From Coptis chinensis (lineage: Eukaryota; Streptophyta; Magnoliopsida; Ranunculales; Ranunculaceae), in assembly GCA_015680905.1 (NCBI GenBank), contig CM027378.1:104181501-104245500 (forward strand): DNA of 64,000 nt, given 5' to 3'. Positions 16,964 through 54,380 of this stretch are shown here, piece by piece; within the stretch, counting starts at the first letter, position 1; each line of letters opens with the position of its first letter. The position numbers and the translations under genes are program-made. The notes beneath the pieces are model-generated. The model saw only the letters and a program-made list of their open reading frames with translations. It had not been told where the DNA came from and searched no databases.

Positions 16964-17518
16964 TATAGAATTGATAGTATTCAGGAATGGAAAAAAGGGA
17001 TTTGATTATTACTTCTGTGTGTATATTAAATATGTTATGTGATTTGTGGTGTGTATAGGGATATGTACTGATTATCACTAATTAATTCAGAAGTTTGAAA
17101 GCGAAATTACCTAATTTATGGTATATGACTATATGTCGTGGGGCTAAGATTCACTCATACAAAGAATACAGTGAGGGTATTTTCTTGAACCTAATTTAGA
17201 AGCAGTGAAAGATTTGTCAGGAGAATTTGAAGCTTAGAATTGCGAACAAAGATTTGATGAAACATCAATAGTTCAATACTCTTGACAATAGCCGATATAT
17301 TGGAAAATTTTGGGAGTTTAGACATGGGTTGTTGTTGTAACTAGCCATTTGGCCCGGCCTATGGCCGGACTTGCTGCATAGATAGCTAATTACTCAAAAA
17401 CCTAAAGTCCACTTGAATAAATAATATATGTATATTGATAGCTAATGATTCATTGCATATTTTGTTTGAAGGGTTTATGTTTTTCTAATATTTTTTGAAG
17501 GGGATTGCAAGCTCTCAA

Positions 17519-29001: not shown

Positions 29002-29006
29002 AATAT

Positions 29007-29290
29007 TGTTGAGATTTATATCAATACCAATCGATTCTCCCACTACACAAATAATTTGTATTTGAACACACTTCAACTCCAGACAAATTTTAAATATCAA
29101 CTACAATCTATACTAATATGCCCAACTCGCTAAACAACTATTAACAACAAATAATAATATAAAACAGAATTAAAACAAACCACAACACAAAGATATATCG
29201 TGGTTCGGTCAATGATGCCTACTTCCATAAGAGCTAGTTCTTTATAAAGTGGGAAGAAAGATTATAATCTCTATTTTCAGTCTCTCATCT
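29007..29290 (-). repeat. Copia-2 3' LTR, distal part
   Basis: Matches 45599-45885 of the 5' LTR from its TG end onward and stops at TCTCATCT, where the hAT-like copy A begins. The preceding AATAT is the target duplication of Copia-2. Confidence 0.9.
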
Positions 29291-29699
29291 CATAAAAAAA
29301 TATCCCGATATATCGCGATATTTGGGGATATCTATCCAGATTTCAGAGAAAGATATATAAATATCACGATATGTTTAGAGATATATACGACTATAAATAT
29401 CAGTGATATTTTGACGATATTTACGATATTTGTGATATTTGAGGATATTTGGCGATATTTTATGTATATAACAATTTTATTTAATATTTACCATTATATT
29501 TTAAATAAATATAAATAATGTATCATGATATATCAATAAATATCCACAATATCCACGATATTTGTCGATATTTTGGATATATCCACGATATTTACATGTG
29601 AAACAATGTCAAATATCCCTAAAGAGGAGGATATATCCACGATACATATCCAGAAATTGAATATCGATAAATATCTATATCTTGATATTTTGTACTATG
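29291..29699 (+). mobile_element. hAT-like element copy A (left end of composite)
   Basis: Starts CATAAAAAAATATC (degraded inverted repeat) and ends GATATTTTGTACTATG. The interior is dominated by ATATCG/GATATT motifs that could be transposase-binding subterminal repeats. Close match to copy B without the nested MITE. Non-coding. Confidence 0.7.
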
Positions 29700-29724
29700 G
29701 TAGTGTAAAATATGCGTACCTTTA

Positions 29725-30210
29725 GAGCATTTGCAATGCAGGGGGTTTCAAGAGGTTTGTGACTATAGTCACCAGTTTTGGGGAAAAACTGTTCTGCAAT
29801 GCAGAGGTGAATACCTAGTGACTATTTTGTCCAGTTGATTTCAAGGTGAAACTCATCACCGAGATAGTGGCTGACTTGTTAACTTCGGATGGGATGTTGG
29901 ATTCCGTCTCGTGTGTTTTTTTAAAAAAAAATGGGTTTTTTTTCCGAACGGGATATTGGATTCTGTCTCGCATGATTTTTCAACTTTTTTTGGTTTTTTT
30001 TAAAATTTCAGATGGGATGTTTCATTCCGTTCGAAGCGTTTTTTCGATTTTTATGTCCAGACAGAATCCAACATCACGTCCGAGATATTTTATTCACCTT
30101 TGCATTGCACAGCTTCACCTTGTTTTTCACCGTTTGGTGAAAAGAAGGTGAATAAGTGTTGAGGTGGTGGTGATAAGGGGGGATTATATTCACTTGCATT
30201 GCAAATGCTC
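29725..30210. mobile_element. Harbinger-like MITE, complete
   Basis: Terminal inverted repeats GAGCATTTGCAATGCA / TGCATTGCAAATGCTC are exact over 16 bp and flanked by TTA on both sides (29722-29724, 30211-30213), the PIF/Harbinger target signature. The interior has T-runs with ...GGATATTGGATTC / GATGGGATGTTTCATTC repeats. Confidence 0.85.
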
Positions 30211-30340
30211 TTAATAGGTGTAGATGACACGTGACGTTGAGTATGAATGTGCACCTTAGTTTTGTTGATTGCAGCGAAAATAGGAGAAAACCTAACAATG
30301 GACTAAAACCTAACCGCGTGTCGTAAGCCTTACTTTTTAA

Positions 30341-32080
30341 CTAGTATGCGAACCGTGATTCGCACCGGTTTATCGAAAGTAACCGGTGCACACTTGGTAT
30401 TTTAAGAAAATTCTGCTCACGGATCATTCTAAGTTGATGCTTAATAGCTTCATGTATATATATGATATATGTATATGCTCTGTAAGACCGGCCAGGTCAC
30501 CTATATTCAAGTGAGCAATTATTATATACGCTATCCTGTCCCATGGTATATGTTTGGGCTGGAGGATTGAGATTTGATTAGGACTAAAGCTTCTTTTCCG
30601 TGGGACTATTGACCTGAAGTGTCACTACAGAAAATAACAACACACCTGAATGTTTTTTCATGCAGAAAAGTTGGAACCACTTACAACACTTTTCTCCAAA
30701 CTGTATGCCTTCATGAACGCCATGTTAGAAAAGTATATCCATGATGCTTTAGAGGCTTTTTACAATCTCTCTTCTCTATCAAAATTTAAACTGGATTAAT
30801 TAATAAAAAGAAGCCACTAATTTCAAGTAAGATCTTTTGTAACTTTGGTATGTACATGACTTCTAAGCCTTTAAGACGCTTAGAAATCAATGATAGGTTT
30901 TCCAATCGTCAAATTTCGTTCTACAGTCCATGGCAAGTTAAAGAGCTTTGTTGTGATGAACTTGAAAATCTTATTGACGTTTATATTGTGGGTTGCACTC
31001 GAAAAGAAGAGTGTTGCTTTCATGGCCTTTGCGTACATTCTTGCCTGTTCAATTCAGATAAATTTATATTAGTGTTTTAGTGTTTCCGCATGTTAATGTT
31101 AACATATGTTGATCAGAAAAATAAATAAAAGACACATTTTCGAGTCAACAGATGCATCATAATTCATACATACTCTGTTTGGTCTAAACTTCATGACATA
31201 TAGGCAGATGGCTTCAAATAATTGTTCAAAATCCTTTAGTAGCATACTTGATCAGCTTCAAGGGCTGCCCTGTAGGCAGTGTCTTGTTCCTCCCTCAATC
31301 TTGAGTTGTTCATCCTTTCTTCTGCATCAAGCCTAGCTGTGACCTGAACTGGAGCGCTCTCTTCTACTACCTTCTGAAGGATTGCAAGCATTTGTTCAGG
31401 AGACTTTGGTCTTTCAATCTGCAAGATACAACAATATATAAAAATTTAATAATAACAATAATAATAAACAAAGAAATAAATAAATATTGAATGGTTGACA
31501 TCTTTATCCTCTACCTAGCAGCCTAATACATCAAACAATGGTTAATGACAAAACACTTTCTTAATAACTTGTCAAATTTAATGTTTTATGCACTGAAGCT
31601 GCCCGCTAGAATTCTACAAACAACAGAAGCAGTGCGATGTGATACCACCTACTTGAATAATGTGTTCGGAGAAGTGTGTTTCTTCTCTGTTGCAATTGAT
31701 GGCAGGGAAGGGAGATTACCAACCCAGCCACTAAAGTAAAGTGACACAGCATAAGAGCAGTAGCATGTAGGCCCTGCAAGGTGATGCGTTCAATTCTCCA
31801 GACCAGTAATGCCGCTAAGATAGGCAGTCGTCAATGCATGCCCACCCCTAGAGGTGTTGTAAGTATGAAATTACAACTTCTAGACTAAGCTGAAGAAGAA
31901 CTCCTCAGGACTTGGCTTTTGGTGTTTGTCAAAATCTAGCAAAATATAGACGTCAAGCATATTTGTATGAACATTTATAAATTTTGTAAGATGTTTAAAT
32001 AAGCAAACATGTAGCACTACCACTGGACCAACCCACGAATTTTCCCTATGATTATTTTGGCCATCCTTTAGAATAGTCGA
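30341..32080 (-). mobile_element. Possible Helitron carrying a UBX exon (borders tentative)
   Basis: The minus strand ends with a TGCGAA-TCACGG-TTCGCA hairpin and CTAG at 30341 followed by T. The hairpin lies closer to CTAG than usual. A possible 5' end in the same orientation is TCGACTATTCTAAAGG ending at 32080. The UBX exon inside has the same orientation. Confidence 0.25.
31248..31418 (-). pseudogene. UBX-domain protein (PUX10/UBXD8-like) exon
   Basis: 57 codons between an acceptor (TCTTGCAG) and a donor (CAA|GTATGC), reading ESAPVQVTARLDAEERMNNS then RLREEQDTAYRAALEADQ. This is the coiled segment just before the UBX domain in plant PUX10/FAF2-like proteins, which bind CDC48/p97 and target it to lipid droplets or ER. 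Only this exon is present, so it is a fragment. Its frame and splice borders are intact. Confidence 0.75.
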
Positions 32081-32524
32081 TACTTGCAATCCGCCAACAG
32101 CTTCCCTATTGTGCGATGCACTTCAACAGGAACCAGCTTACACTTTTGAGCACGATAAAAAACAAAGGTGTTCATTTCACTGAATTGAATCATCTGAGAA
32201 GCATACCACTAAGTATTGTAGTTTCGTCCTAGATGCAAGGTTTAGGTCTACCATATTTCCACTGCCAACATAGATTGTTCTGCTATTACATGAACCCAAT
32301 AAAAGAAGAAACATGACTGTTTTTTCAACTACTAACAATGCCCTGTTATGATCCTTTTAAAATACATGCATCCCATAAATAATAAAAAAAAAAAATGGTG
32401 CTAATCTTGCTTAGTCTATGGCCAGCACCATGCCCATCACTCTATGACCACAAAACGATTTCTTAAAATAGTCTATGGAATAGTTCTAACCCCATAAAAT
32501 GTTGGTTAAAGACACTATACGTAC

Positions 32525-32657
32525 TTTCAGCTTTGAGCGTGAGCCCCTTCCTGCAAAGGGAGCCAGTGACACTGCTTGCAGGAGTAATGCTATTATCTCC
32601 ATTTCTTTCAGCTCCATAAGGCAATGGTGTTGCATACATTTTCAGAGGTGGTTGGGC
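32525..32657 (-). pseudogene. Exon-like fragment, unidentified
   Basis: Between acceptor TATATGCAG and donor GAAA|GTACGT the minus strand reads QPPLKMYATPLPYGAERNGD and continues to SLCRKGLTLKAE. Codon use and borders suggest a real exon. I do not recognise the protein. Confidence 0.3.
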
Positions 32658-33055
32658 CTGCATATAAGGATGAGTCATACAATAGGCAGTTGCACCCAAA
32701 TCAACAAATTGCCTTATGAAGAGTATAGTTCATTCAACCAATTGCGGGTCCGACTCAGTAAAGAATGTGTTTACTTTTAAAGCATAATGTAATGCAAAAG
32801 CTTAGTTCATTGCAAACTAAGCCTTGGCATTACGACTGTGACATTTGATACCTAGGAAAATAAGTCAATATTTTACTGGTTTGACTCAGGGCTACCAATA
32901 GTTCATCACTTCACTGCCAACCTTTCATTCCTTGGGTGTAATCTTAATTTACTTTAACCTTCTGGCTTCTAAGCTATCTGAATCAATCTTTTAAATTGCA
33001 TGACCAGGGGGATATACAGTATTTGTTTTATGAAACCAATAACTCAATCACTTTG

Positions 33056-33367
33056 TGTAGAATTTAACAACCAATCAAAGAGACAAAACACAAGATTTAT
33101 AGTGGTTCGGTGCCATTGCGGCAACCTACGTCCACTAGAGAAGAAAGAGATGTTATTGTTTGGTTAATGTTTAGGGTTCTATTACAGAGATATATATATG
33201 CACAACACAAGTGCATAAAATCGTCTCTAGTTTCTAAGAATGGAGTATTCCCTTTTATAGAAACACCAATATCGGTCGAACTTATCATGAACCGACCGAA
33301 GCGCAAGACGCTTCTTCATCATCGTGGTGCAATCAAGGCCAAGACACACTGCTCTTCTTCTCCCACA
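33056..33367 (-). repeat. Copia-1 3' LTR
   Basis: 312 bp, TGTGGGAGAAG...TTCTACA on the minus strand; paired with 38433-38744. The two LTRs differ by multiple substitutions and small indels, so the insertion is not recent. Confidence 0.92.
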
Positions 33368-33378
33368 TTCCCTCTCAA

Positions 33379-34975
33379 GTTGGTGCGAAGATATCCAGCG
33401 AGCCCAACTTGGAGAGTATATCATGAAACTTGGAAGCTGGAAGTCCCTTGGTAAAAATGTCTGCAAGCTGTTGGTCACTTTGAACAAAGGAGGTAGTGAC
33501 AATGTTAGACTACACTTTTTCACGCACAAAATGACAGTCAACTTCAATATGCTTAGTTCTTTCATGGAACACCGGATTTGCAGCAATGTGCATAGAAGCT
33601 TGATTATCACAGTAAAGTATAGTTGGCAGATGCAAACCAAAATACAAATCCTTCAGAATAGCGCGAAGCCATATGATTTAACTGGTGGTAGAAGCCATAG
33701 CCTTGTATTCAACTTCAGCACTAGAACGAGCCACTACATTCTATTTTTTGCTCTTCCAAGTAACCAAATTAGCTCCCACAAAGGTACAATAACCTGAAGT
33801 AAACCGCCGATCAACTGGACATCCTGCCCAATCAGCATTTGTATAGGCAATAATAGATATATGCCCATTTTTCTGCATCCAAATACCTCTTCTTGGCGAC
33901 CCTTTCAGATACTACAGTATTCTGGAAACTGCATTCATATGTGGAGTCCTTGGAGCATGCATAAAATGACTAACCAAGCTTACTGCATAAGAAATATCTG
34001 GTCGGGTAATAGTTAAATATATTAGTTTACTAACTAATCGCTGATACTGACCAATGCCAGTAAATAGATCACCGGTGTTGTCCAACTTGACTCCACTGTC
34101 AGTTGGATAATCAGATGGTTTTACCCCCAGCTTTTCTGCTTCACTCAAAAGATCCAACATATACTTTCTTTGATTAAGAAATATACCTCTTTTTGAATAA
34201 GCAATTTCGATCCCAAGAAAGTACTTCATAATACCCAGATCCTTGATGGAAAATTTCTTGTGCAGTAGATCCTTGAGCTTAGAGATTTTGATATGGTCAT
34301 TACCTATGATAACTATGTCATCAACATAAATAAGAACAACAACCAAGCCTGACTTGCTAGACTTAACAAATAAGTAAGGATCAGCATCACTCTGCTTAAG
34401 ACCGGTCATAGCTAGAACAGAACTGAGCTTGGCATGCCACGCTCGTGGAGATTGTTTAAGTCCATAGATAGACTTTTTTAACTTGCATACTAATCCAACC
34501 TTAGTCTCCTTCGGATGTCCAGGTGGGATGCTCATATACACTTCTTCTTTAAGATCGCTGTGTAAAAATGCATTTTTAACATCCATCTGAAACAATTTCT
34601 AGTCTTGATTTACAGCTAGAGATACAAGAATTCTAAACGTGTTCATCTTTGCAACTGGTGCAAAAGTCTCTTTGTAGTCCTGACCATATGTTTGGGTGAA
34701 TCCCCTTACAATGAGTCGAGCTTTAGACCTCTCTAAGGAACCATCACTGTTGAACTTGTTTCTGAACACCCAACGATAATCAACTGTTTTCTTTTCGTAA
34801 GGTAGCATAACAATCTCCCAAGTTTTATTCTCGTCTAAAGCACAAAGTTCTTCTTGTATCGCCTTTCTCCATACTGGGCTAGAGTTAGTTTCTCTAAAGT
34901 TCTTGGATTCTTGCACATCATCGACTGTACTTAAGAAAGCATAATGAGATGAAGTGATATTAGCATACGTTATAT
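33379..34975 (-). pseudogene. Copia-1 reverse transcriptase and RNase H
   Basis: The RVT_2-type RT begins YANITSSHYAFL, continues WRKAIQEELCALDENKTWE and RWVFRNKFNSDG, then a stop at 34596-34598, then FQMDVKNAFLHSDL (motif A) and LIYVDDIVIIGND (YVDD catalytic motif). The RNase H part follows from about 33900 to 33400 with several stops and frame breaks. It would copy element RNA into DNA; this copy is inactive. The upstream border coincides with the inserted LTR. Confidence 0.9.
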
Positions 34976-34980
34976 ACTCC

Positions 34981-36793
34981 TGTATATTATTGCAGGAGTA
35001 TATTATTGCACCACTTTCATTCTTTCACGTGCCAATATATTATTGCACTACGCCACACTCCTGTGGGAAATATCCATAAATACTCTACTACCTCCTAGTA
35101 GCATCTCACAGATAAAATAATGGAGCGTTTATACATTTATTTCTCCAAAACTGTTGCATTTAATATATATATCCCAACATATTATATAATGTCACAATTG
35201 CTTCAAACGTATCGCATACATTTTTATAGTGTTTTAGGAATATTATATATCCTAAAGTTTCTATCTCGTCACGTGTCAAAATATACACAATATCAACGTC
35301 AAATCTTTCCTAGATAATGACAATCAAATTTATACAAGCTTCGACAATATTTTATTACTACATTTGTCCATAAAAAATCAAATAGGTGAAAATCTGGAAA
35401 AAGTCAACATTCCACAGTCAACGGTCAACAGTCAAAGTCAACACGTCATGGTCCATGTCCAACATGTTCAGGGTCATAGCCATGGTTCATGACTAAGGTC
35501 AATGTGCATGGCTCATGGGCTCATGACTAAGGTAATGGTTCGGACCCAACTGGCCAAGCCCAAACCTTAGAACCCGGCCCCAAAAGCCTAAATGTTGAAA
35601 GACCCATTTGGATCTCTATTTTAAGTCCTAAGGACTGGCCCCAAACAATCAAGCTAAACTGGCCCAACAACTTAAAACACAACCGGGCCAACCAAAAATA
35701 GAAATTTCGGCCCAGCAACTAATCAAGCTTAGGCCCAAGCCTCAAGCCCAACCAAACAGATCTAGTGAACTAGAATACATCCGTGAGCACCGGATCGCAC
35801 TCACCTTCTTCTTCCTCCAACAGATCCCTCCACCACCAGCCACCAAATCGGGTTCTCCTCCTCCTCCCACTTCATCATATTGGTTTTTACCCTTGGCAAA
35901 AACCAAACAACTTTAACAAAACCCCCACTCAATTAAGCCACCAAATCGCGACTCCTCTAAAACGGATCCAGAAATATTCATCCTCCATTAATGGCTTCTA
36001 CAAGCTCCACTCGACACTACTATCAAGCACCCAATCCTCTCCACTACCACCAAACATAAACTAAACCACAACTACCACATCATAACATTATAAAAATTCA
36101 AAATCGTTAACAGTACCGATTTCTATGGGTTGGCGCCTCCATTAACGCCGGTTCAAAGCTTCCACAACACTCAAACAACCAACCCGACATCAAATACTTA
36201 ATCCCCAACATCAACCAACAAAAATAACACAAACTAACAGTTCAAAATAAAATCATAACGCCCCCACAGTATCACAGTAACGCATACAGAGGAGGATTCA
36301 TTACTTTGGGGCTTTAGCCGCCATTTACGGGCCCAAACAAGGTGCCAAACAAGGTTCGACCGTTCAAACCTCCATTTTTCCGAATTTCAATGGAGTTTTA
36401 ACAACACGACAGACACGACACCCAATAAAACAGGATAATGAGCAGTATCAAAAGGCAGAAACCTTAGACAGTATACACCGATACACGAAAAACTATAAAT
36501 TCGTGAAATAGCAAAAATAGCTACTCACCTTAATTAACCGCCGACGAATTCCTCCTAGTTCAATTGTCGCTACTCCAACACTCTAGCAATCCAAATTCCA
36601 TTTTTATTATATTTTATTCTCTAAAAACCCTATTATCTAGAACAAGGTGATTATATACTTGGGTTTGAAACCCAAACCCAATACAGACTCGGGCCCAGAA
36701 ATCAGGCCCACGTATCCCAAATCCAATCCAGCGAATTTTTAAATAAATAAATAAATTAATAAATAAATACGTATTTTAAATACGGGCATTACA
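34981..36793 (-). repeat. Solo gypsy-type LTR inside Copia-1
   Basis: On the minus strand the segment begins TGTAATGCCCGTATTTAAAATACG, a typical chromovirus-type LTR start, with a TATA-like TATATAA some 140 bp in, and ends ...TATACA at 34981. No internal gypsy coding sequence. The flanking 5-mers differ (ACTCC on the left, ATTAA on the right), so there is no target duplication, and the copia integrase core that should lie at this site is gone. Confidence 0.65.
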
Positions 36794-38250
36794 ATTAACT
36801 CAAACAAATTATTAGACATAGTATGCGAGTTGGGAAAAGGTAAACGAGTTTGTTTAGAAAATTGACAAACATCACAAACATCATCAGAGTTTATAGAAAC
36901 ATGCGGAAACAAATTTGACGGGACATGACTAGATGGATGCCCAAGTCTTTTATGCAAAATGCGACTCTCAAGTAAACCACTAGCTTGACACGTCGTCTTA
37001 TGCAACTTCAACAAATAGAGCCCATTGGAATAAATTCCTTCACCAATCGTCCTCTTCGACTTTCGATCCTGAAAGACGGCAGAGTTAGGAGAAAAAATGA
37101 CATCACAATTTAAAGAATTTGTAAGTTTGCCAATAGATAGAAGTTGGATAGGGAAGGAAGGAACAACTAGAGTGTCACTCTTAAGACTTTAATTAAAAAA
37201 ATCCACTTGACCACTACCTAGAATGGGGACGGTGGATCCATTGGCTATGGAAATATTATGTTTTTCGGTTTTGGACACAAAATTATAGACAGAGGCAGGG
37301 CAATTAGTCATATGATCAGTAGCCACCGAATCAATTATCCACGAGTTACTATTTTCTGGCATAGTAAAATAGGCATGCAAATTACTAAACACATGAGTTG
37401 AGACATACTGACATACTGACCTTTGCTAGATGGCATGGACTTAGTAAGTTGTTGGAGAATTTGACTCAACTGATGACTAATATCTAAGTTGGAAATTGAT
37501 GTCTTGGCTACTGCGGCATGATCTTTCTTGGACAGTTCCTTTTTAAGATGCGGATGTAATTCACAACAACGGTCCTTGGTGTGCCAATTTTTTCCACAAT
37601 GATCACAGTGAGATCGACGGTTCCTCTTTTCCCTTACCTTTTTCAAATCCCTGTGACTTCTTTCGAAAATCGTTTTCTGCAAGTAATACAAGAGATTCAG
37701 AGATTGAAGACTTCACCTCGGAGTTAATGGTTTTCTTCCTTGTTTCCTCTCTCTTAATAGTTGCACAAACAGTAGCAAGTGATGGAAGAGTGTTTTCCAT
37801 TAGAATATTATTTTCTAGATTTTCATATTTTGGTTTAAGACTATGAAATACTGTGAAGATTTTATCCTCTTCAGCCCGTTTCAAAAGAGTTTTAGCATCT
37901 GTGGTGTGTGGACGATATATGTTTAAATCCCATAATTTTTTAAGATTCCTAAGGTGTTATGTAAAAATCTTCCCACCTTGTTGCATGACACCGATTGCAA
38001 GTTGAAGTTCAAAAATACGGGCAGAATTGTTCTGGTTTCCGTATAAATCTTCAATTGAATCCCGCATCTCCTTTGCAGAATCAGAGAAAGTAAAAATTCC
38101 AGCAATAGTTGACTCCATCGAATTGAGTAGCTAAGATCAAATAAGCTGATCATTGAAAACCCAATTCTCGTATTCGACATCATCAATGGCAGGACACACC
38201 TTTGCACCATTAATGAACCCTAATTTCTTCTTGCCACCCAGAGATAGCGA
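36794..38250 (-). pseudogene. Copia-1 gag, protease and start of integrase
   Basis: The minus strand carries Gag pieces (38250-37600), a CCHC knuckle (CDHCGKNWHTKDRC, near 37590-37550), the protease WIIDSVATDHMT (near 37340; the usual DSG is DSV, so the active site is damaged), and the GAG pre-integrase HKRLGHPS...CDVCQFSKQTRLPF, ending at FELI where the inserted LTR starts. Frames are broken several times. Confidence 0.85.
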
Positions 38251-38432
38251 AACAGCTCTCGACCAAGGTATAGTTTATTCCATTCAAAAGAATTGATGAC
38301 AGCTTCCAACCGGGATTAGAATTAGTCTCTGTTGTTACAGCAGACTTTGGGTTTGGTTTTGGATATGTCATAGTATTTCGTGTTTATTTATGTTGATTTA
38401 GAGAAGAGATTAAGCGCTCCGCTCTGATACTA

Positions 38433-38744
38433 TGTAGAATTTAACAACCAATCAAAGAGACAAAACACAAGATTTATAGTAGTTCGGTGCCATTGCGGCA
38501 ACCTACGTCCACTGGAGAAGAAAGAGATGTTATTGCTTGGTTAATGTTTAGGCCAGGTTCTATTACAGAGATATATATAGGCACAACACAAGTGCACAAA
38601 ATCGTCTCTAGTTTCTAAGAATGGAGTCTTCCCTTTTATAAAAACACCAATATCGGTCGAACTTATCATGAACCGACTGAGCGCGCACGCGCCTTCATCA
38701 TGTGCAACTGAAACGCGCACGTGCTGTCTCTTTCTTCTCCCACA
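38433..38744 (-). repeat. Copia-1 5' LTR
   Basis: 312 bp, followed on the minus strand by the primer-binding site at 38420-38431. The CTTTG duplication flanks it at 38745-38749. Confidence 0.92.
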
Positions 38745-38749
38745 CTTTG

Positions 38750-38846
38750 CAAGGAGACATTCACGTTTCAAAAAGTGTTGATAAAGGTGCGACATGGCAG
38801 CAGTTGGGAATTGCTCTAGATGAGGAGTGGCATCTCTCTTATCCAT
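38750..38846 (-). pseudogene. Exon-like fragment, unidentified
   Basis: Adjacent to Copia-1, the minus strand encodes DKRDATPHLEQFPTAAMSHL followed by YQHFLKRECLLAK, then runs into the target site. No family recognised; possibly another captured piece, cut by the copia insertion. Confidence 0.25.
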
Positions 38847-39035
38847 ATATTTTTGACAGAATATAAACCCTCCTCTTCCTCTTTTGACGCAAACTGTTGT
38901 TAATATGTGGATGACCTAAAAATTCTACAAAGAAGACAGAGTCTTCGAATCAATACCGAAGTGCCCATCGCTAGATTAATTACATAAATAAGATAGCACG
39001 ACTCTCACGCCAATAATGATAATGATAAGAGACCA

Positions 39036-39400
39036 TGATTGTTGACTCTCAAGTCAATACTACGAACTTAAAGAGCAATTATGCATCACATATTAAATTA
39101 TTAGCTAGTAATGCCCAAGTACCTTCCATCGAGACTATGATTGTTGACTCTCAAGTCAATACTATGTTGCAACACATATTAAATTATGAGCATGTCTTCA
39201 GTGCGCAGGTTGTATGGTGCGTAGGTAATGTGGGCCTTTGGATCAGTACTTTTGCCATGCAATACACACGCACCCCTTGGTATGAGTGGCCCAGATTTGA
39301 TACGACCTGCGCACCATAGATTTAGCCTTAAATTATTAGGTAGTAATGCCCAACTACCTTCCATCGCTAGATTAATTACATAGACAAGAGAGCACGACTC
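39036..39400 (+). repeat. About 100-bp tandem repeats upstream of the C2 gene
   Basis: ATGATTGTTGACTCTCAAGTC at 39036 recurs at 39137. The linked blocks ...TTAAATTAT(TAG)..AGTAATGCCCAA.TACCTTCCATCG occur around 39090 and 39330, and the second is split by the MITE at 39188. Confidence 0.6.
39188..39327. mobile_element. Mutator-like MITE, copy 1
   Basis: 140 bp with imperfect terminal inverted repeats sharing GTGCGCAGGT(T/C)GTAT near each end, flanked by an exact 9-bp duplication TTAAATTAT (39179-39187, 39328-39336), the Mutator-superfamily size. Starts GAGCATGTCTTCAG, ends GATTTAGCC. Confidence 0.85.
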
Positions 39401-39433
39401 TCACGTCAATAATAATAAGGGACTATGACTGGT

Positions 39434-39601
39434 CTCATTCTTCACACCCCCATAACATGTATTTAGACAATTACACCCTACACCTTTGATGTTCCAAGAC
39501 AATTCTAAGCTACGGGCCTCATTCTTCACACCCCACATAACATGTATTTAGACAATTGCACCCTACACCTTTGATGTTCCAAGACATAATTCTAAGCTAC
39601 G
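39434..39601 (+). repeat. 84-bp tandem duplication in the C2 gene promoter
   Basis: CTCATTCTTCACACCCC... begins at 39434 and again at 39518 with few differences, ending about 15 bp before the TATA box region. It could double any promoter element it carries. Confidence 0.8.
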
Positions 39602-39615
39602 CGGTTTGAGTTTTC

Positions 39616-39622
39616 TATATAT
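39616..39622 (+). promoter_or_regulatory. TATA box of the C2-domain gene
   Basis: TATATAT about 95 bp upstream of the ATG, a plausible spacing for a short 5' UTR. No intron acceptor lies between. Confidence 0.45.
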
Positions 39623-39713
39623 CTTTCTAGTTGGTTCTAAACGTAGAGTAAGGAACTTTTTATACCTATACTCCAAAAAATCAACTTTCAATCTCAACCG
39701 TTAATCTTTCATC

Positions 39714-40355
39714 ATGAACCAAATGCCGTTAGACTTAACTGTTCGTTCAGCTAAAGATCTAGAAAAAGTGGTGCATATTGCCAAGACAAAAGCTTATGTC
39801 GTCGTTAAGATCTCTTCTGATCTAAGAACGGAACAGAAAACTACACCTGTTGATCACGATGGTAGGGAAAACCCAACCTGGAATTGCAATATGGAGTTTA
39901 CCATAGATGAGGGTTCGATTATTGTTTTCCAACTTCGTTGCAAAAGGAGTCTTGGTGATGATCGTGATATTGGGGAAGTTAATGTGCCGATTAAAAACCT
40001 TCCTCACAATCTTGGTAATGGGAAACAGGTTGTTAGTTATCCAGTTTTTACTAAGGGAGAATCTAAAGGGGAGCTAAGTTTTTCGTATGAGTTTGGTCAA
40101 AAGGTCGTCCAACCGCAAACAGATTACCCGACTGGGAATGTAAAGGAGCCTGTAGGTCCGTCTTCTCCAGCACCAATACCGCAACCGTCTAAGAAGAAGA
40201 GGAAAATCGGTATTCGGGCGGTAACTGAAATTGTGAGTACCGTGATAGGCGGTATTGTGAGTGCATTGATTTTAAAAGCTGGTGGTGGTGGTGATGATGA
40301 TGATAATGATGATAATGATGATGATGATGATGAGAGGGTTGTGTTTGCAAGTTAG
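39714..40355 (+). CDS. SRC2-like C2-domain protein with C-terminal membrane anchor
   Basis: Single-exon 213-aa protein. Residues about 5-130 form a C2 domain of the plant SRC2/BAP type: LDLTVRSAKDLEKV, KAYVVVKISSD, HDGRENPTWNCNMEF, RCKRSLGDDRDIGEVNVPI, KGELSFSYEFGQKV. Such domains bind membranes, often with calcium, and SRC2 proteins are cold- and stress-linked. A Pro-rich linker and a basic cluster (SKKKRKIG) precede a hydrophobic stretch at about 175-193 (VTEIVSTVIGGIVSALIL), likely a tail anchor, and a GGGGDDDD... acidic tail encoded by a GAT repeat. The Tyr/Gly/Pro-rich tail of classical SRC2 is absent. The gene is intact, lies inside the composite transposon, and copy B begins 12 bp after its stop, so its 3' UTR must come from the transposon. 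Confidence 0.85.
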   Translation: MNQMPLDLTVRSAKDLEKVVHIAKTKAYVVVKISSDLRTEQKTTPVDHDGRENPTWNCNMEFTIDEGSIIVFQLRCKRSLGDDRDIGEVNVPIKNLPHNLGNGKQVVSYPVFTKGESKGELSFSYEFGQKVVQPQTDYPTGNVKEPVGPSSPAPIPQPSKKKRKIGIRAVTEIVSTVIGGIVSALILKAGGGGDDDDNDDNDDDDDERVVFAS

Positions 40356-40367
40356 TAGTCTAAAGGT

Positions 40368-40895
40368 CATAGTACAAAATATCGCGATATTTGGGGATAT
40401 CTATCCAGATTTCAGAGAAAGATATATAAATGAGCATGTCTTCAGTCTTGGTCGGTCGTGATGGGTCGCGGGTAATTATGGGCCTTTGGATTCAAGATTT
40501 ACGCCATTAAATACACACGCACCCTTGGTATGAGTGGCCGAGATGTAATGGCGCACCATACATCTCGCGCACCATAGATTTAGCCTATATAAATATCACA
40601 ATATGTTTAGAGATATTTACGATATTTGTGATATTTTGTGATATTTGGCGATATTTTGTGTATATAACAATTTTATTTAATATTTGTCATTATATTTCAA
40701 ATAAATATAAATAATGTATCATGATATATCAATAAATATCTATAATATCTACGATATTTGTCGATATTTTAGATATATTTACGATATTTGCATGTGAAAC
40801 AATGTCAAATATCCCCAAAGAGGAGGATATATCCACGATACATATCCAAAAATTGAATATCGATAAATACCTATATCCTGATATTTTGTACTATG
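40368..40895 (+). mobile_element. hAT-like element copy B (right end of composite)
   Basis: Starts CATAGTACAAAATATCGCG and ends CTGATATTTTGTACTATG: an exact 16-bp terminal inverted repeat CATAGTACAAAATATC. Without the nested MITE it is about 365 bp and closely matches copy A in the same orientation. The outer edge abuts the resumed Copia-2 LTR. Confidence 0.75.
40432..40585. mobile_element. Mutator-like MITE, copy 2, nested in copy B
   Basis: 154 bp, same ends as copy 1 (GAGCATGTCTTCAG...GATTTAGCC). Flanked by a 9-bp duplication TATATAAAT (40423-40431, 40586-40594). Copy A at 29351-29366 shows the uninterrupted site. Confidence 0.9.
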
Positions 40896-41362
40896 TCTCA
40901 CCTTACTAGATCACTCTTATATCTTTACAGGGTTGTCTCTCTGTAAATGTTATCTCTCAATTTTGATACATTTCAAGATTGGGTTTTTTCTGACTTTTGT
41001 GTTGTCTCTCGTGTGTTTCTTGGGTGTTAGGTTTTGCCAAAAACTCCCAACTCTTATTGCAAACTCGCAGTCCACAAAATTAGACTTCTTCTGAAAATAA
41101 ACTTCGAAGCGCCGGCTGCTTCGAGCAAGCACAATAAGTCGAGCCAGGGTGCACTTTACTCTACCGAAGTCCATCATGCACGAGCCGCGCAGTCGCGCTC
41201 CTAACAAGGCAAATCTGAGCGCATGGCGCTACCAAGCTCCCGATGTCGAAAGCAAGGCATGGCGATGCCGCGCCTGCGTCTGAAACCGAGTGCAAGGTGC
41301 GCTCAACATTCTTCATGCAGGCTGAACTTCAGTTCCTCCTCATGTGAGGGATAACTCCAACA
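40896..41362 (-). repeat. Copia-2 3' LTR, proximal part
   Basis: Continues the LTR exactly where the left part stops and ends TCCAACA at 41362, next to the polypurine tract. Confidence 0.9.
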
Positions 41363-41412
41363 ATCTCCCCCTCCCGAACAGTGAGGGGGGATACCTCCTT
41401 GTAATTTCCAAA

Positions 41413-43088
41413 TCAACAGAGGAGGAGTGTCGCCATTCCCAAAGTGATAAGCGAACAAACATCAAACTTACCTTTCGGTAAGACTTTGGTCATCATATCC
41501 GACCCGTTCTTGTTGGTATGGATCTTCTCGATACACAAGTATTTGTCTTCGAATACTTCTCTAATCCAATGATAACACACGTGTATATGCATGGATCTAG
41601 AATGAAAACTCGGATTCTGGCTCAAATGGATGACGCTTTGACTGTCACATAGAACTACAAACTGTTTCTGCTTTAGCCCTAGTTCGTCGAAGAACCTCTT
41701 CATTCATAGCAACTCTTTGCAACACTTAGTGGCTGCAATATACTCGGCTTCTGTAGTGGAGAGGGCAACACACTTTTGCAACTTTGATTGCCAAGAAACT
41801 TCTCCCCCTGCAAAAGTAACCAGATAACCAGAGGTGGACTTTATCGAGTCAATATCACATGCCATGTCTGCATCAGTGTAGCCTTCAAGTAAGGGCTTAC
41901 TTCCACCAAAGCACAAACACGATTTGGAAGTGCCCTTGAGATATCTCAATATCCACTTAACACCTTCCCAATGCTCCTTCCCGGATTTGACAGAAAACGG
42001 CTTACAATGCCCACGGCGAAAGCTATATCTGGTCTTGTACACACCATTTCGTACATCGCCTAATCGATGGATGCATAAGGAATCTTTTCCATCTGACTCT
42101 GCTCATGCTCACCCTTTGGACACATCTCTTTGGTCATGCGGAACTGGCCACCAAGCGGACAACAGACTAGCTTCGCTTGATCCATGTTGAATCTCTTCAA
42201 CACCTTCTCAATGTAGCTTTCTTGAGAAAGCCACAACTTCCCACTCTTTCTGTCACGAGTGATCCGCATCCCAAGTATTTGCTTTGCTTGACCAAAATCT
42301 TTCATCTCAAAGGACTTACTCAAGTCTTTCTCCAGCTTGAATATCTTGTTGATGTTTGGGCCAACTATCAATACATCATCCACATACAGCAATAGCACTA
42401 TAAAATCCCCATCTGGAAATCTCTGAACAAACACACAATGATCGGAAGCAGACTTCTTGTATCCTTTCTTCGCCATAAAGGAATCAAACTTGATGTACCA
42501 CTGTCTCGGTGCTTGCTTCAACCCATACAAGCTCTTTATCAGCTTGCATACTAGGTGCTCTTTGCCTTTGACCTCAAACCCCTCTGGCTGGTCCATGTAG
42601 ACATCTTCTTCAAGGTCTCCATGAAGAAAAGTTGTTTAACATCTAGTTTGCTCAACCTCTAGGTTCATACTTGCGGTCATACCCAATACCACCCGGATAG
42701 AAGTCATCTTCACTACAGGAGAGAAAATCTCATCAAAGTCAATCCCTTTTCTTTGACCGAATCCCTTCACAACAAGGCGAGCTTTGTGTCTTGGGTGAGG
42801 ATTGTTCTCCTCATGCTTGACTTTGTATATCCACTTATTCTTGAGAATTTTTCATCCTTGTGGTTTCTCAACTAACTCATAAGTGTGATTCTTATGCAAA
42901 GAATCCATCTCGTCATGTATGACCTTCAACCACTTTTCTTTGTCTGTACCTTCAAGTGCCTCTTGATAGTACATAGGTTCTCCACCATCCGATAGTAGCA
43001 CGTACGTATGTGGTGGATACCTGGTTGAAGCTAGTATCTCTTTGTTTGACCTTCTTGCCCCATCTGCTGGTGCCTCAGGAGGATGCAC
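41413..43088 (-). pseudogene. Copia-2 reverse transcriptase and RNase H
   Basis: RT from about 43088 (NKEILASTRYPPHTYVLL, EALEGTDKEKWLKVIHDEMDSL) through FEVKGKEHLVCKLIKSLYGL and LLLYVDDVLIVGP (YVDD motif) to 42060. RNase H follows from 42042 to about 41413 (YTDADMACDIDSIKSTSGYL, KCVALSTTEAEYIAATKC, LCDSQSVIHL). Stops and frame breaks occur near 41704, 42060 and 42597-42850. Inactive copy. Confidence 0.9.
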
Positions 43089-43266
43089 TTCTGCTTACTC
43101 TAGTGGTGGTTCATGCATTTCATCTGCATCTTCTATACCAATAGGTTCTATCCCATCATGAGCAATAGGATTCTCATCATGAGCTTCAAACTCATGGTTC
43201 TCTCGTGCATTCTCAATGCCTTACGCGACGCTCCACGGTAGGAACTTCGGTTACGAATCAACAAGA

Positions 43267-44220
43267 TCATTGGTGAAAGCCTCGTAAATTCTCACCCTCC
43301 TTAAAGTCCGCTATGGTTTGGTCTTCCAAGAACACAACATCTCGACTTCGGATTACCTTCTTGTTAATCGGATCATAGAGTTTGTAACCAAACTTTTCAT
43401 CTCCATAACCCAGAAAAATGCACTGCTTGGCTTTGTCATCAAGCTTAGATCTCTTATCCTTCGGAATATGCACAAATGCCCTGCACCCAAATACCCTCAA
43501 GTATCCATAATCAACATCTCTGTCTGACCATACTTTCTCTAGATAATCACTATTCAGAGGCTTTGACGGCGATAGATTGATCACATGCACGGCTGTACGC
43601 ATTGCTTCTACCCAGTAGGTTCTAGGTAGCTTAGAGTGAGACAACATGCATCTCATCCTCTCTACAATGGTATGGTTCATTCTCTCTGCTATTCCATTCT
43701 GTTGCGGTGTCTTGGGAACGGTCTTCATGACTAATCCCATAACTCGCAATAATACTCTTCAAACGGCCCAATATACTCACCCCCATTATCTGAGCGAATA
43801 CACTTCAACAACTTCCCAGTCTCTCTTTACACCATATTGTGGAATTTCTCAAACACGCCAAGTACTTCATCCTTGGTATTCAGACTATAGGCCCATATCT
43901 TTCTTGACATATCATCAATGAAGGTCACGAAGCATGAAGATCCCCCATGGGACTTCACTTTTATAGGACCACATAATTCTGTGTGCACTAGTTCAAGGAC
44001 ATTGTCCTTTCGTGGAGATTCGAATCTTTGAAAGACACCTGCGCTGCTTTCCCAAAGAAGAGTTAGTACATGTATTTAAATGTGTACCTTTAATGTCTGG
44101 CAAGGCCTTTTGCTTAGCAAGAACTTCTATCCCTTTTATGCCCATGTGACACAATCTCTTTGTGCCACGCCGAGGAGGAAGCTTCTTCTTCGCGCACAGA
44201 TTCACTTCTGCTTTACGCAA
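43267..44220 (-). pseudogene. Copia-2 integrase
   Basis: The second half of the catalytic core is clear: KTPQQNGIAERMNHTIVERM, then AMRTAVHVINLSPSKPLN and the C-terminal GYDEKFGYKLYD-like stretch. The N-terminal zinc region (about 44220-43993) is in another frame. Integrase would insert the element; frame breaks prevent that here. Confidence 0.85.
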
Positions 44221-44499
44221 ACTAGTCTGTGTTTTGTAAAAATAGCAAGTTTTCTTCGTTCCCTCTGGCTGCTACAATGGAACCTTTGCTCAGTTTCCAT
44301 ACCCCGTTACCAAACGAGTTTACAAAACCATTGTCATCTAATTTCCCAAAATTTTAAATTAAAGCTTAACCGTATGTTAGGGGACATGTCTTACATCCTT
44401 GAGTGTCAAGGTGTAGCCGACATTGGTTTTCTATATGAACATCTCCAATGCCTATAATCTTCGTGGACGCTTTCATCGCTACCCATCCTCACTTCACCA

Positions 44500-45488
44500 T
44501 ATTCACCACAAATGTAGGTAGTGAAGAATCCCCTGCGATTAATGGCGTGATAGGATGCTCCTGTATCTATCACCCACTCTGTATCCTAACATGAGGTACT
44601 AAGACAACACACACCACAATTTGACACAATTCCCACTAGGTCGTCGACTAGTACGGTAGTATCTCTGCTTGTGTTTCCGTTCCTCTACACCATGTCTTCA
44701 TGTACACAATTATTCTTCTCATCCCTCTTCAGTGTTCTGCACTCATATATGAAGTATCCCTTGGTGGCATAATTGTAACATTGCCTCTCTGCCTTAGGAG
44801 TTATAGCTTCACCCCTAGATTTACTTCTATCATCACCTCTAGAACGAGATGGTTTTCTGTATCTACCTTTCCCCCGTTTCTCTGTGACAAGGATCTCTGA
44901 GTGTGAGGAGCTTCCTTTTGAACTCCTTCTAGTTTCCTCATTCAACAAAGCCGTGATAGCCATCTCCATAGTAACAATTCTATCCTTGGATGCTCCGTGT
45001 AGAGAGACTGCTAATGTCTCCCAACTTTCGGGTAGAGAGCCTAATAGAAATAAAGCCTCAACTTCGTCTCCCAAATCAATCTTCATCAAATGCATCTGAT
45101 TGATGGGATTTTGTAATTCGTTAAGATGCTCAGACATTGAAGAACCTTCTTGGTACTTCGTGTCGGCAAACTTCTTAACGACCAACACTTTGTTTCCGCC
45201 CGACTTCCTCTCATAAAGGTCTTCGAGTTTCTTTCACAAGCCAAAAGTTGTTGTCTCTTGGGATACATGGTGAAAGACATTGTCGTCAATCCACTGTCGA
45301 ATGTACCAAATTGCTTTTCTGTCAAGCTTGCTCCACTCAGCCGCGGCGACCGTTTCCGGTCTTTCTCCTCCATTCTCAATGGGTTGTGCCAAGCCTTTGC
45401 AATAAAGCAAGTCTTCCATCTTAGCTTTCCAAATGGTGTAGTTCTTCCTATTCAGACTTGTCATGCGAGTGTTCACGGAATGGTCCAT
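44500..45488 (-). pseudogene. Copia-2 gag and protease
   Basis: Gag starts at 45488 (LNRKNYTIWKAKMEDLLY), shifts frame near 45200, and continues with MLVVKKFADTKYQEGSSMSE to a degenerate zinc knuckle CYNYATKGYFIYEC, in which the second Cys and the His are Tyr. The protease (WVIDTGASYH, about 44580-44550) follows in another frame with its DTG retained. Confidence 0.85.
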
Positions 45489-45598
45489 TTCTACAAGTTA
45501 TTTAAACTCAAATCTTCTCTCAGGAATTTTGTCAAACACCTTCCGACCAAGATTTGGATAACACCCTAGACTAATCTAATCAAAGCTCTGATACCACT

Positions 45599-46342
45599 TG
45601 TTGGGGTTTATACCAATACCAATCAATTCCCCCACTACACAGATAATTTGTATTTGAACACACTTCAACTCCAGACAAATTCTAAATATCAACTACAACC
45701 TATACTAACATGCCCAACTCGCTAAACAACTATTAACAACAAATAATAATGTAAAACAGAATTAAAGCAAACGATAACACAAAGATATACCGTGGTTCGG
45801 CCAATGGTGCCTACTTCCACAAGAGCTAGTTCTTTATAAAGTGGAAGGAAGATTACAATCTCTCCTTTCAGTCTCTCACCTTACTAGATCACTTTTATCT
45901 CTTTACAGGGTTGTTTCTCTGTAAAGGTTATCTTTCAATCTTGATAGCTTTCAAGATTGGGTTTTCTCTGACTTTTGTGCTGCCTCTCGTGTGTTTGCTG
46001 GGTATTAGGTTTTGCCAAAAACTTCCAACTCTTATTGCAAACTCGCGGTCCACAAAATTAGAGTTCTTCTGAAAATAGACTCGAGCGTGGGGTGCGCCTC
46101 GAGCAAGCACAAGTCGAGCGCAGGGTGCGCTCACTCTACTGGAAGTCCATCAAGGCACGAGCGCAGGTCGCGCTCCTAACAAGGCAAATCTGAGCGCATG
46201 GCGCGCTGAAGCTCCTGGATGTCGAACAAGGCATGGGCACATGCCGTGCCTCGTGGAAGACCAAACTGAGCACAGGGTGCGCTCAACATTCTTCATGCAG
46301 GCCGAACTTCAGTTCCTCCTCATGTGAGGGATAACTCCAACA
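45599..46342 (-). repeat. Copia-2 5' LTR with GAGCGC palindrome cluster
   Basis: 744-bp intact LTR. Between 46083 and 46284 it carries five imperfect palindromes of the form GAGCGCAGGGTGCGCTC. The right flank AATAT (46343-46347) is the target duplication. Confidence 0.92.
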
Positions 46343-46347
46343 AATAT

Positions 46348-50345: not shown

Positions 50346-50799
50346 GTGTACAAATCACTAAAATAGATTGATTGTTTCCATATCCTCAAAGAATACACCA
50401 CTCTCACTTGAAAAAGATTTATCACATGAACGTGTCCTACGAACGGGTGCCGTTATATTAAATTATTCTAAAAAATATTAGCAACTATGCATAGCTATGA
50501 GATATGAAAATTATATTAATTACTCAATTAAATTTCTTGCACCATTCTCTATAAAAAGGAAGCATCAAACTTTGATAAAACTCATCGACTTCTTTTCATT
50601 GTTAGTTTTAACAATAGAAGTTTGATTGAAGTTTTTTTAGAATGTCCAATTTGGTGAAGATAATATTTAAGCTACTTGAATAGCAAGGCATTCCCAATCA
50701 CAATAAAAGAAGTATGATGAACATTACTTAAAATGCAAAACTATATTTGTCGAGACATTTATTCCCCCTACATATAATACAAATATATTTTAGGGTTAT

Positions 50800-53720: not shown

Positions 53721-53774
53721 TTCAGTATTATATATATTTTAAAATATTTGTCATTATTATTTGCTTTTTTTTTT

Positions 53775-54380
53775 TTTTTTTATATAATTTTCTATTATAT
53801 ATTTTGTGATGTTATTTTTTGTATAATTGTTTTTAACTATGTTTTGAGGCCATGTTAAGGATATATTCAAATAAGTCGATGTTTTATCATAGACACTAAA
53901 ATTATATGATTTGTAGTAAGGAATTAGTTTATACAAATTACATATTTTTAGCAATTTTTTTTTTTGATCAAATATATAAGAATTGGAACACTAAAAGTGT
54001 TTGATTCGTAATAGAAAATTACTTTTTACAAATCACCTATTTTGTAGCAATTGTTAAAAATATCTGTCATTATTGCTTTGCCGTTATTTTTTTTTCCATT
54101 TTCTATTATATATTTTGTGATGTTATTTTTTGTATAATTGTTTTTAACTATGTTTTGAGGCCGTGTTAAGAATATATTTGAAATAAGTCGGTGTTTTATC
54201 ATAGACACTAAAATTGTATGATTTGTAATAAGGAATTTTACAAATTACCTATTTTTTTTTTTATTTGATCAAATATATAAGAATTGGAACACTAAAAGTG
54301 TTTGATTCATAATAGGAAATTACCTTTTACAAATCACCTATTTTTTAGCAATTTTTTTTATTTGATCAAATATGTAAGAA
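53775..54380 (+). repeat. 311-bp tandem duplication in the Helitron 5' part
   Basis: TCTATTATATATTTTGTGATG at 53791 recurs at 54102, with the following ~260 bp (AACTATGTTTTGAGGCC, TTTTATCATAGACACTAAAA, GATCAAATAT) conserved. Confidence 0.8.

Follow-up and report, generated by a model that had tools for sequence, protein, structure and literature searches.

Anatomy of the locus

The window, a stretch of 64,000 nucleotides from Coptis chinensis, carries a minus-strand copia element in which one LTR is broken by an 11.6-kb insert (29291-40895). MITE A stands at the start of this insert and MITE B at its end, both in the same direction, and the cargo between them holds a nested copia, an exon fragment and a C2-domain gene. 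The features are listed by window position; coordinates preceded by "C2:" refer to a second cargo copy on the same chromosome.

29002-29006, no strand: left copy of the 5-bp target duplication of the host copia, AATAT, read from the sequence (right copy, 46343-46347)
29007-29290, minus: left part of the split host copia LTR, from alignment to the partner LTR
29283-29290, no strand: left copy, TCTCATCT, of the composite insert's 8-bp target duplication; site unbroken in the partner LTR
29291-29699, plus: MITE A, putatively hAT-type; worn at the outer 5′ end, with an intact inner 3′ TIR, GATATTTTGTACTATG
29700-40367, plus: cargo, 10.67 kb, collinear with C2:104440802-104451375
29700-29707, plus: X, GTAGTGTA, first bases of the cargo and inner flank of A; identical at C2:104440802-104440809
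29725-30210, no strand: Tourist-like MITE with a 3-bp duplication, TTA; missing from the second copy, which reads uninterrupted AACCTTTAATAGG
33056-38744, minus: copia nested in the cargo, 5-bp duplication CTTTG; same site occupied in the second copy
38738-38860, plus: GINT1 N-terminal exon fragment (PF24793, E 4.6e-18)
39188-39327, no strand: small dispersed element, 9-bp duplication TTAAATTAT; not found at the equivalent place in the second copy
39714-40355, plus: C2-domain gene, 213-aa open reading frame; the other copy is Coptis chinensis IFM89_034016 (C2:104450712-104451329)
40360-40367, plus: Y, CTAAAGGT, last bases of the cargo and inner flank of B; CTAAATGT in the second copy
40368-40895, plus: MITE B, of the same family and orientation as MITE A
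40432-40585, no strand: small element nested in MITE B, 9-bp duplication TATATAAAT; related to 39188-39327
40896-40903, no strand: right copy, TCTCACCT, of the 8-bp target duplication
40896-41362, minus: right part of the split host copia LTR
45599-46342, minus: intact partner LTR, with the unoccupied target visible

When joined across the interruption (29290/40896), the halves of the split LTR aligned over the full length of the partner LTR, which holds the target site unbroken as CAGTC-TCTCACCT-TACTAG. The octamers flanking the insert are identical at 7 of 8 bases, and octamers as near to TCTCATCT as its partner occupy 54 of 63,992 window positions, both flanks counted in. An earlier note on this DNA had described a copia LTR in two parts that fit its partner, with an 8-bp repeat at the joint that is single in the intact LTR, and both statements are borne out. 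Its claim that the gap ends at the outer ends of two direct copies also stands, with the coordinates corrected to 29291-29699 for A and 40368-40895 for B, and the inner flanks are as unlike as it had stated (GTAGTGTA after A, CTAAAGGT before B).

MITEs A and B share 92% identity across their common 3′ ~309 bp, and the small element nested in B measures 154 bp. Reading the insert as one large hAT element is rejected, since both MITEs are full length and each has its inner TIR. The outer 5′ terminus of MITE A is worn, reading CATAAAAAAATATC where the family has CATAGTACAAAATATC, so that its past competence is an assumption. The closest listed copy to MITE A, at C6:48761561, is 98% identical over 403 bp. 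Compared half by half with the fetched family copies, both parts of A found their best or near-best match in the same copy (L002; 97.9% and 97.6%), the 3′ half tying with another (L003). MITE A looks like one coherent element along its length, and MITE B belongs to a different lineage.

Within the cargo, a six-frame Pfam search of 29700-39400 at E 0.01 returned copia domains and GINT1 and nothing else. A minus-strand stretch at 31.2-31.4 kb has an exon-like look and may resemble plant UBX proteins. The two copies of the C2-domain gene differ by 2 synonymous and 10 non-synonymous changes over the first 186 aligned codons and by 8 and 17 over all 205; in these small counts the codon differences give no sign of constraint on the duplicated gene.

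A high-copy MITE family with hAT features

The family TIR, CATAGTACAAAATATC, was found at 2713 exact 16-base termini genome-wide (1334 + 1379), against 1 for the reversed control. Among 14 distinct family spans recovered by the TIR pattern at fetched loci, 11 had flanking octamers alike at 7 or more of 8 bases, two of these (L056 and L057) going back to a single insertion that was duplicated in tandem; the three spans without matching octamers all sit in one nested cluster (L058). Unrelated flank pairs never reached 7/8 (0/287). For TIR spans longer than 1 kb, 7 of 13 picked from 100 listed sites had at least 7/8 flank bases alike.

A larger element of 11,948 bp (C1:21217520-21229467) has the same TIR, an 8/8 duplication and a stretch matching DUF659 (E 2.5e-12 and 1.9e-4 in two different frames), a domain that the relevant passage of PMC3985635 describes as including hAT transposases. 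When 12 frames of this element were searched at E 0.01, DUF659 alone was returned and the hAT dimerisation domain was not found. Many matches to PF05699 turned up, without a link to the family TIR. The 8-bp duplications at 11 of 14 spans, together with DUF659 in a larger element bearing the same TIR, strengthen the hAT-like label of the earlier note, and sequence features of this kind support the assignment of MITEs A and B as probable non-autonomous, hAT-type members of one high-copy family.

A second cargo copy bounded at the inner MITE ends

Two genome searches gave, among their scored candidates, just one other full-length collinear copy of the cargo, which lies 218 kb beyond the insert (C2:104440802-104451375) and contains neither A nor B. 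Its homology to the window begins at the first base after A and ends at the last base before B. At the left boundary 24 of the 25 bases after A match; at the right, Y matches at 7 of 8 bases, up to the first base of B. Both cargo copies have the copia at the same site, the GINT1 exon fragment and the C2-domain gene. The aligned blocks (30211-34984, 36794-38984, 38987-39114 and 39526-40364) run in order along C2:104440824-104451372 and span both edges of the shared copia, and the segments without alignment are 34985-36793, inside the copia, and 39115-39525.

The second locus reads unbroken at both inner-flank sites (GTAGTGTA, 8/8; CTAAATGT, 7/8), as expected if each MITE inserted there separately. 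In the 50 kb around it, no copy of the A/B family and no homology to the flanks of the insert was detected at E 1e-8; one further match was an unrelated 170-bp repeat from window positions 17340-17496. The earlier note had proposed a search for the cargo at a locus lacking copia flanks, and such a locus was found on the same chromosome, but A and B are missing there. Because it lacks the MITEs, this locus is not the donor allele itself, and neither a donor allele with both MITEs nor an emptied donor site was found in the one haploid assembly. The same note had named two findings that would tell against its reading: cargo homology does not run on past A or B at the second copy, and no LTR allele with a single hAT-like copy was seen in this haploid assembly.

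The octamer before X at the second locus, AAAGTGTT, agrees with X at 5 of 8 bases, either by chance or perhaps as the worn footprint of an excision; no footprint was seen on the B side. The sequence at X resembles the family TIR, to a degree equalled by 22 of 20,000 random positions.

Relative ages

Divergence of the host copia LTR pair (left part) is K2P 0.085 over 281 sites. The cargo copies are 3.7-4.6% apart in three clean, non-LTR blocks (K2P 0.038-0.048). MITE A differs from its nearest copy by ~2%, below the cargo-copy divergence, which suggests that transposition would postdate the split of the cargo copies, small numbers and an AT-rich MITE being involved in this comparison. One block is discordant: the left LTRs of the cargo copia differ between the two copies by K2P 0.083 over 269 sites, and the LTR pairs inside either copy give lower values (0.054 and 0.065). 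The age order fits macrotransposition, since host LTR divergence exceeds cargo-copy divergence.

Probable macrotransposition and its alternatives

Several properties of the insert are those of a macrotransposon. Two full-length elements of one family, in direct orientation, occupy its exact ends; a single outer 8-bp duplication (TCTCATCT/TCTCACCT) is accompanied by unlike inner flanks; and the intervening DNA is collinear with another locus, where the second copy ends at the same two bases that mark the insertion points. We consider it very probable that the insert is a natural macrotransposon, in which a transposase used the 5′ end of A together with the 3′ end of B and moved everything between them into the LTR. 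Use of the outermost ends had been proposed in the earlier note, and the base-exact ends of the second copy at the inner MITE ends support it. Counting against it are the missing A and B at the second locus, the worn outer TIR of A, the ~2% by which A differs from its nearest copy, the discordant LTR block, the TIR-like sequence at X and the lack of composites among the other same-direction pairs checked.

Since the second copy is bounded base-exactly at A and B, the likeliest course is that these MITEs inserted into a copy of the segment at sites separated by 10.7 kb. The two non-autonomous hAT MITEs would have entered in the same orientation at GTAGTGTA and CTAAAKGT, the latter on the 3′ side of the C2-domain gene, and the segment receiving them would have been an allele (haplotype) or duplicate of the one now at C2:104.44 Mb. 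Acting in trans, a hAT transposase would then have paired the 5′ end of A with the 3′ end of B, rather than both ends of one MITE. The 11.6 kb would have been cut out whole and inserted in the copia LTR ~0.2 Mb away, a local transfer, creating the 8-bp duplication. The unmarked copy would have survived, and therefore the gene-bearing segment is now present twice in the genome.

Ectopic recombination is an improbable alternative. Here a MITE resident in the LTR, flanked by an 8-bp duplication of its own, would have recombined with a circle or chromatid carrying MITE-cargo-MITE, so that the outer ends came from the resident MITE and the inner ends from the incoming ones. This would yield identical final anatomy, unlike inner flanks included, and over a thousand family copies could serve as substrates. 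However, it requires that MITEs inserted three times and that ~400-bp copies ~8% apart underwent ectopic exchange twice, and among the fetched copies A seems coherent, both of its halves lying near L002, with B of another lineage. The recombining circle that the earlier note offered as its alternative carries this same cost of a third insertion and two exchanges, and is retained as a rival at that low standing.

We regard patch repair as very unlikely. Had two adjacent MITEs stood at the LTR, transposase cuts at their inner ends could have left a gap filled with 10.7 kb copied from the second locus, which would account both for the lack of MITEs at that locus and for joins placed precisely at the inner MITE ends. 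Against this, a very long templated patch would be needed, the LTR site must already have held two MITEs in tandem, and neither join has microhomology (end of A, TACTATG versus AGTGTT; start of B, CATAGTAC versus TAGTGTAT). Both recombination and patch repair are weaker than macrotransposition.

An assembly artefact, or an ordinary segmental duplication ending in MITEs by chance, can hardly be credited even though a single assembly was examined, as the cargo copies have diverged by the 3.7-4.6% given above, their flanks and later insertions differ, and full-length MITEs together with an 8-bp duplication mark both ends to the base. A duplication covering the entire region, whether in tandem or larger, is ruled out, the cargo alone being shared with the second locus.

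Other MITE pairs

The few other same-direction MITE pairs that were checked yielded no composite. In the direct pair C8:75602013/75622638 (20.6 kb) the two copies share their flanks and are each bordered by a duplication of their own, CACTGGAT; the pair is therefore a tandem duplication. For C1:4735864/4749119 (direct, 13.3 kb) the outer flanks are alike at just 1/8 bases. Low scores were also obtained for 2666511/2679503 (3/8), for 18101055/18106488 and 18101055/18109077 (2/8 each) and for 17739022/17756329 (2/8); 1018985/1020572 scored 4/8 in register, although a 7-base repeat lies one step out of register. The 13.1-kb span C1:23959269-23972409 is a single TIR element rather than two MITEs, with ~0.5-kb direct repeats that look like LTRs of a nested retroelement.

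It is doubtful that the abundant MITEs of this family constitute a standing gene-duplication machine in Coptis, working through direct pairs within ~10-15 kb, with the C2-domain gene as one of several products. If true, the outer ends of direct pairs would be used together, and genes with their surroundings would be copied to new places.

Comparison with known systems

Ac/Ds macrotransposons of maize are reportedly the subject of Huang and Dooner (2008). The mechanism and architecture proposed here are already published, for maize Ac/Ds macrotransposons, for the compound element Ds-l4-483 and for Pack-TYPE fusion. Macrotransposition has been demonstrated with active Ac/Ds in maize and is a proposed route for gene pick-up by Pack-TYPE elements.

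In the relevant passages of PMC9910405 and PMC3260210, the ends of two separate hAT elements act as one unit in maize, and the latter gives intervening DNA of up to 100 kb, mostly nested retrotransposons. The Coptis insert resembles these macrotransposons, as there described, in its two-element hAT ends, 8-bp target duplication and kilobases carried along. It differs in that the maize system was shown genetically with active Ac, whereas the Coptis case is read from one genome and has MITEs at both ends. Ds-l4-483 of maize B73, a compound Ds-like element of 7344 bp, likewise has non-autonomous hAT copies at both ends and outer duplications, its interior being transcribed sequence from another chromosome plus a retroelement (PMC3260210). 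One of its end copies is truncated and the first is described as TSD-flanked (PMC3260210), whereas both Coptis copies are full length and the other cargo copy ends base-exactly at both inner ends.

The Coptis insert also has the make-up of a Pack-TYPE element, with a captured C2-domain gene and the GINT1 exon fragment inside the TIR ends and duplication of a non-autonomous element. According to the pertinent parts of PMC8903248, Pack-TYPE fusion is seen in rice Mariner-type groups AB and BB, with similar hAT examples stated, and the same mechanism is proposed, the outer TIRs of neighbouring insertions being used together to enclose chromosomal DNA. The building blocks described there average ~0.3-0.5 kb and the model loses or mutates the inner TIRs; the Coptis insert, by comparison, is 11.6 kb long, was found once and has both inner TIRs preserved. 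Composite Insertions, formed by reversed-ends transposition and re-replication, likewise duplicate flanking DNA between hAT ends and are macrotransposon-capable, but contain a junction of two re-replicated segments (both points from sections of PMC4270019), whereas the Coptis cargo is collinear with one locus throughout. Two neighbouring same-family elements were similarly proposed to move en bloc for the Anopheles P-element MITE AgaP2-P12MITE, which belongs to another superfamily, has a short end product and, in the portion of PMC1562414 concerned, is inferred from unlike TIRs only.

In the literature examined, we met no natural case that combines two full-length end elements with another cargo copy whose limits are base-exact on either side. 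The Coptis locus would be such a case outside grasses, with ends made of MITEs alone, in which a complete gene reading frame and its flanking DNA appear to have been duplicated by two otherwise trivial elements. It would thus be a clear, naturally occurring instance of a gene-moving reaction that is known chiefly from maize.

Results

One LTR of a copia retrotransposon (the host copia) was found to be split by an insert at 29291-40895, as the earlier note had claimed, since the split halves, put together, align to the uninterrupted partner LTR. The claimed 8-bp repeat at the joint was likewise recovered, the partner LTR's octamer TCTCACCT being present on either side of the gap, with one copy as TCTCATCT. 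Two MITEs of the same family, A and B, form the ends of the insert and enclose its cargo (29700-40367). The window corresponds to C2:104181501-104245500. Away from the insert, its 50400-53800 region is rich in diverged tandem repeats, about 71-84% alike.

Features of the window
29007-46342, minus strand: host copia, with a 5-bp duplication (AATAT)
Break between 29290 and 40896, minus strand: split LTR of the host copia, the gap occupied by 29291-40895
45599-46342, minus strand: partner LTR of the host copia, uninterrupted
29291-29699, same direction as B: MITE A, full-length family member
40368-40895, same direction as A: MITE B, full-length family member
29725-30210: Tourist-like MITE, a difference between the cargo copies
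39188-39327: small element with a 9-bp duplication, a difference between the cargo copies
40432-40585, inside B: relative of the 39188-39327 element with a 9-bp duplication, a difference from the counterpart

The A/B-family terminus CATAGTACAAAATATC occurs at 1334 forward and 1379 reverse sites in the 936-Mb genome, compared with 1 for the reversed control. Among the fetched loci, at least 7 of 8 flanking bases were alike in 11 of 14 distinct spans, and the three spans without matching octamers all lie within one nested cluster of the family. On contig C1, where 36 flanks at a subset of the first 100 sites listed (of 2713) were compared, the same threshold was reached in 7/13 spans longer than 1 kb and 5/6 MITE-sized spans with A/B-family ends; these spans were chosen by eye, two with a common left end, and the fractions are therefore not rates. 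Unrelated flank pairs never reached it (0/287). Copies of this family produce 8-bp duplications. At C9:47979500-47983500 several of these MITEs are nested in and adjoin one another.

An 11.9-kb span bearing the A/B-family TIR (C1:21217520-21229467) is flanked by a perfect 8-bp duplication, CCGTCCAA; the sole domain found in its 12 frames is a DUF659 stretch. DUF659 includes hAT transposases (excerpts of PMC3985635), and its occurrence within an element sharing this TIR supports a hAT-type assignment of the family. The span is possibly a decayed autonomous relative with extra DNA; no complete transposase gene bounded by the A/B-family TIR was found. Counted independently of this TIR, hAT dimerisation domains are abundant genome-wide (at least 150 above the cut-off, of 1546 candidates).

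A cargo locus without the window's copia flanks, which the earlier note had proposed to look for, exists: among the scored candidates of genome searches there is one full collinear counterpart, C2:104440802-104451375, on the same strand as the insert, the two starts being 229 kb apart and the counterpart beginning 218 kb past the insert's end. Coptis chinensis protein P0001 is read exactly from C2:104450712-104451329 within it. Homology starts at the first base past A (window GTAGTGTAAAATATGCGTACCTTTA, counterpart GTAGTGTAAAATATGCGAACCTTTA) and stops at the last base ahead of B (GTCTAAAGGT and GTCTAAATGT, respectively), beyond which lie MITE and LTR in the window and the counterpart's own unrelated sequence. 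The 50 kb surveyed around the counterpart yielded no A/B-family MITE. The alignment extends across both borders of a copia within the cargo, indicating that this cargo copia predates the parting of the two copies. Segments 34985-36793 (inside the cargo copia) and 39115-39525 did not align to the counterpart in this comparison, and ~0.9 kb of the counterpart has no equivalent in the window cargo. The small dispersed element of 39188-39327 and 40432-40585 was listed at >30 genomic places. A further dispersed element with an exon-like minus-strand portion, 30340-32110, has parts repeated at ~90-95% at three places on C8 and also on C3 and C5, besides the two cargo copies.

Cargo and counterpart are 3.7-4.6% apart in three blocks (K2P 0.038 over 2823 sites, 0.048 over 218 and 0.046 over 823). 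The left LTR of the cargo copia (33056-33326 versus C2:104443682-104443950), compared as a fourth block, is a misfit: its K2P of 0.083 over 269 sites exceeds that of the cargo copia's LTR pair within either copy (0.054 and 0.065), an excess that may reflect conversion between LTRs or uneven decay. For the host copia LTR pair, K2P is 0.085 in the left part and 0.207 in the poorly aligned right part; set against the 0.038-0.048 between cargo copies, the 0.085 gives relative ages that fit the nesting.

Discussion

The best explanation, held with considerable confidence, is macrotransposition, in which a transposase uses the 5′ end of A and the 3′ end of B. A and B would have entered a copy of the counterpart segment as two independent insertions of like orientation, at GTAGTGTA and CTAAATGT; the transposase would then have used their outer ends, moving the segment between. 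Because the counterpart is without the MITEs, it represents the unmarked sister of the moved copy and not the emptied donor. hAT elements tend to hop locally, and the short same-chromosome distance between insert and counterpart agrees with this. In maize, 12 of 15 hAT pairs within 100 kb have the same orientation (excerpts of PMC8903248).

Homologous recombination through a MITE already resident in the LTR, with an incoming MITE-cargo-MITE, is compatible with the insert's anatomy taken alone, and we regard it as improbable; macrotransposition demands a pair of ordinary insertions followed by one reaction already known. Two distances count against macrotransposition: the 2.2% between A and its nearest copy, which is a little below the cargo-counterpart distance, and that of the misfit left-LTR block of the cargo copia. 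A donor allele with both MITEs was not seen in the single haploid assembly examined. At the counterpart, the octamer ahead of X (the inner 8-bp flank of A, 29700-29707) has 5/8 bases in common with X and might be a worn excision footprint. In both copies the cargo's left edge, TAGTGTAAAATATGCG (29700-29717; C2:104440802-104440819), resembles the A/B-family TIR TAGTACAAAATATCGCG and is perhaps an old MITE end; 22 of 20,000 random positions were equally good, the question having been posed after the likeness was seen. No second composite of this type was found among the few MITE pairs checked. At C1:22497918, 22499676 and 22509337, one left and two right ends have a common 8-bp flank, TGAAGGAC, and the right ends an identical 30-bp flank, a pattern that either tandem duplication or stepwise formation of a composite could produce.

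Macrotransposons whose ends are Ac/Ds elements have been described in maize (excerpts of PMC9910405, PMC4270019 and PMC3260210), where the anatomy of Ds-l4-483 is nearly identical to that of the Coptis insert (PMC3260210, in part), and the same route to captured genes is proposed for Pack-TYPE elements (PMC8903248, in part). The literature searched on macrotransposition and composite insertions, a partial coverage, included no title on a comparable Coptis case. The Coptis insert is a further case of a known macrotransposon architecture, distinctive in its two full-length MITE ends and in a counterpart from which both insertion points can be placed at single-base precision.
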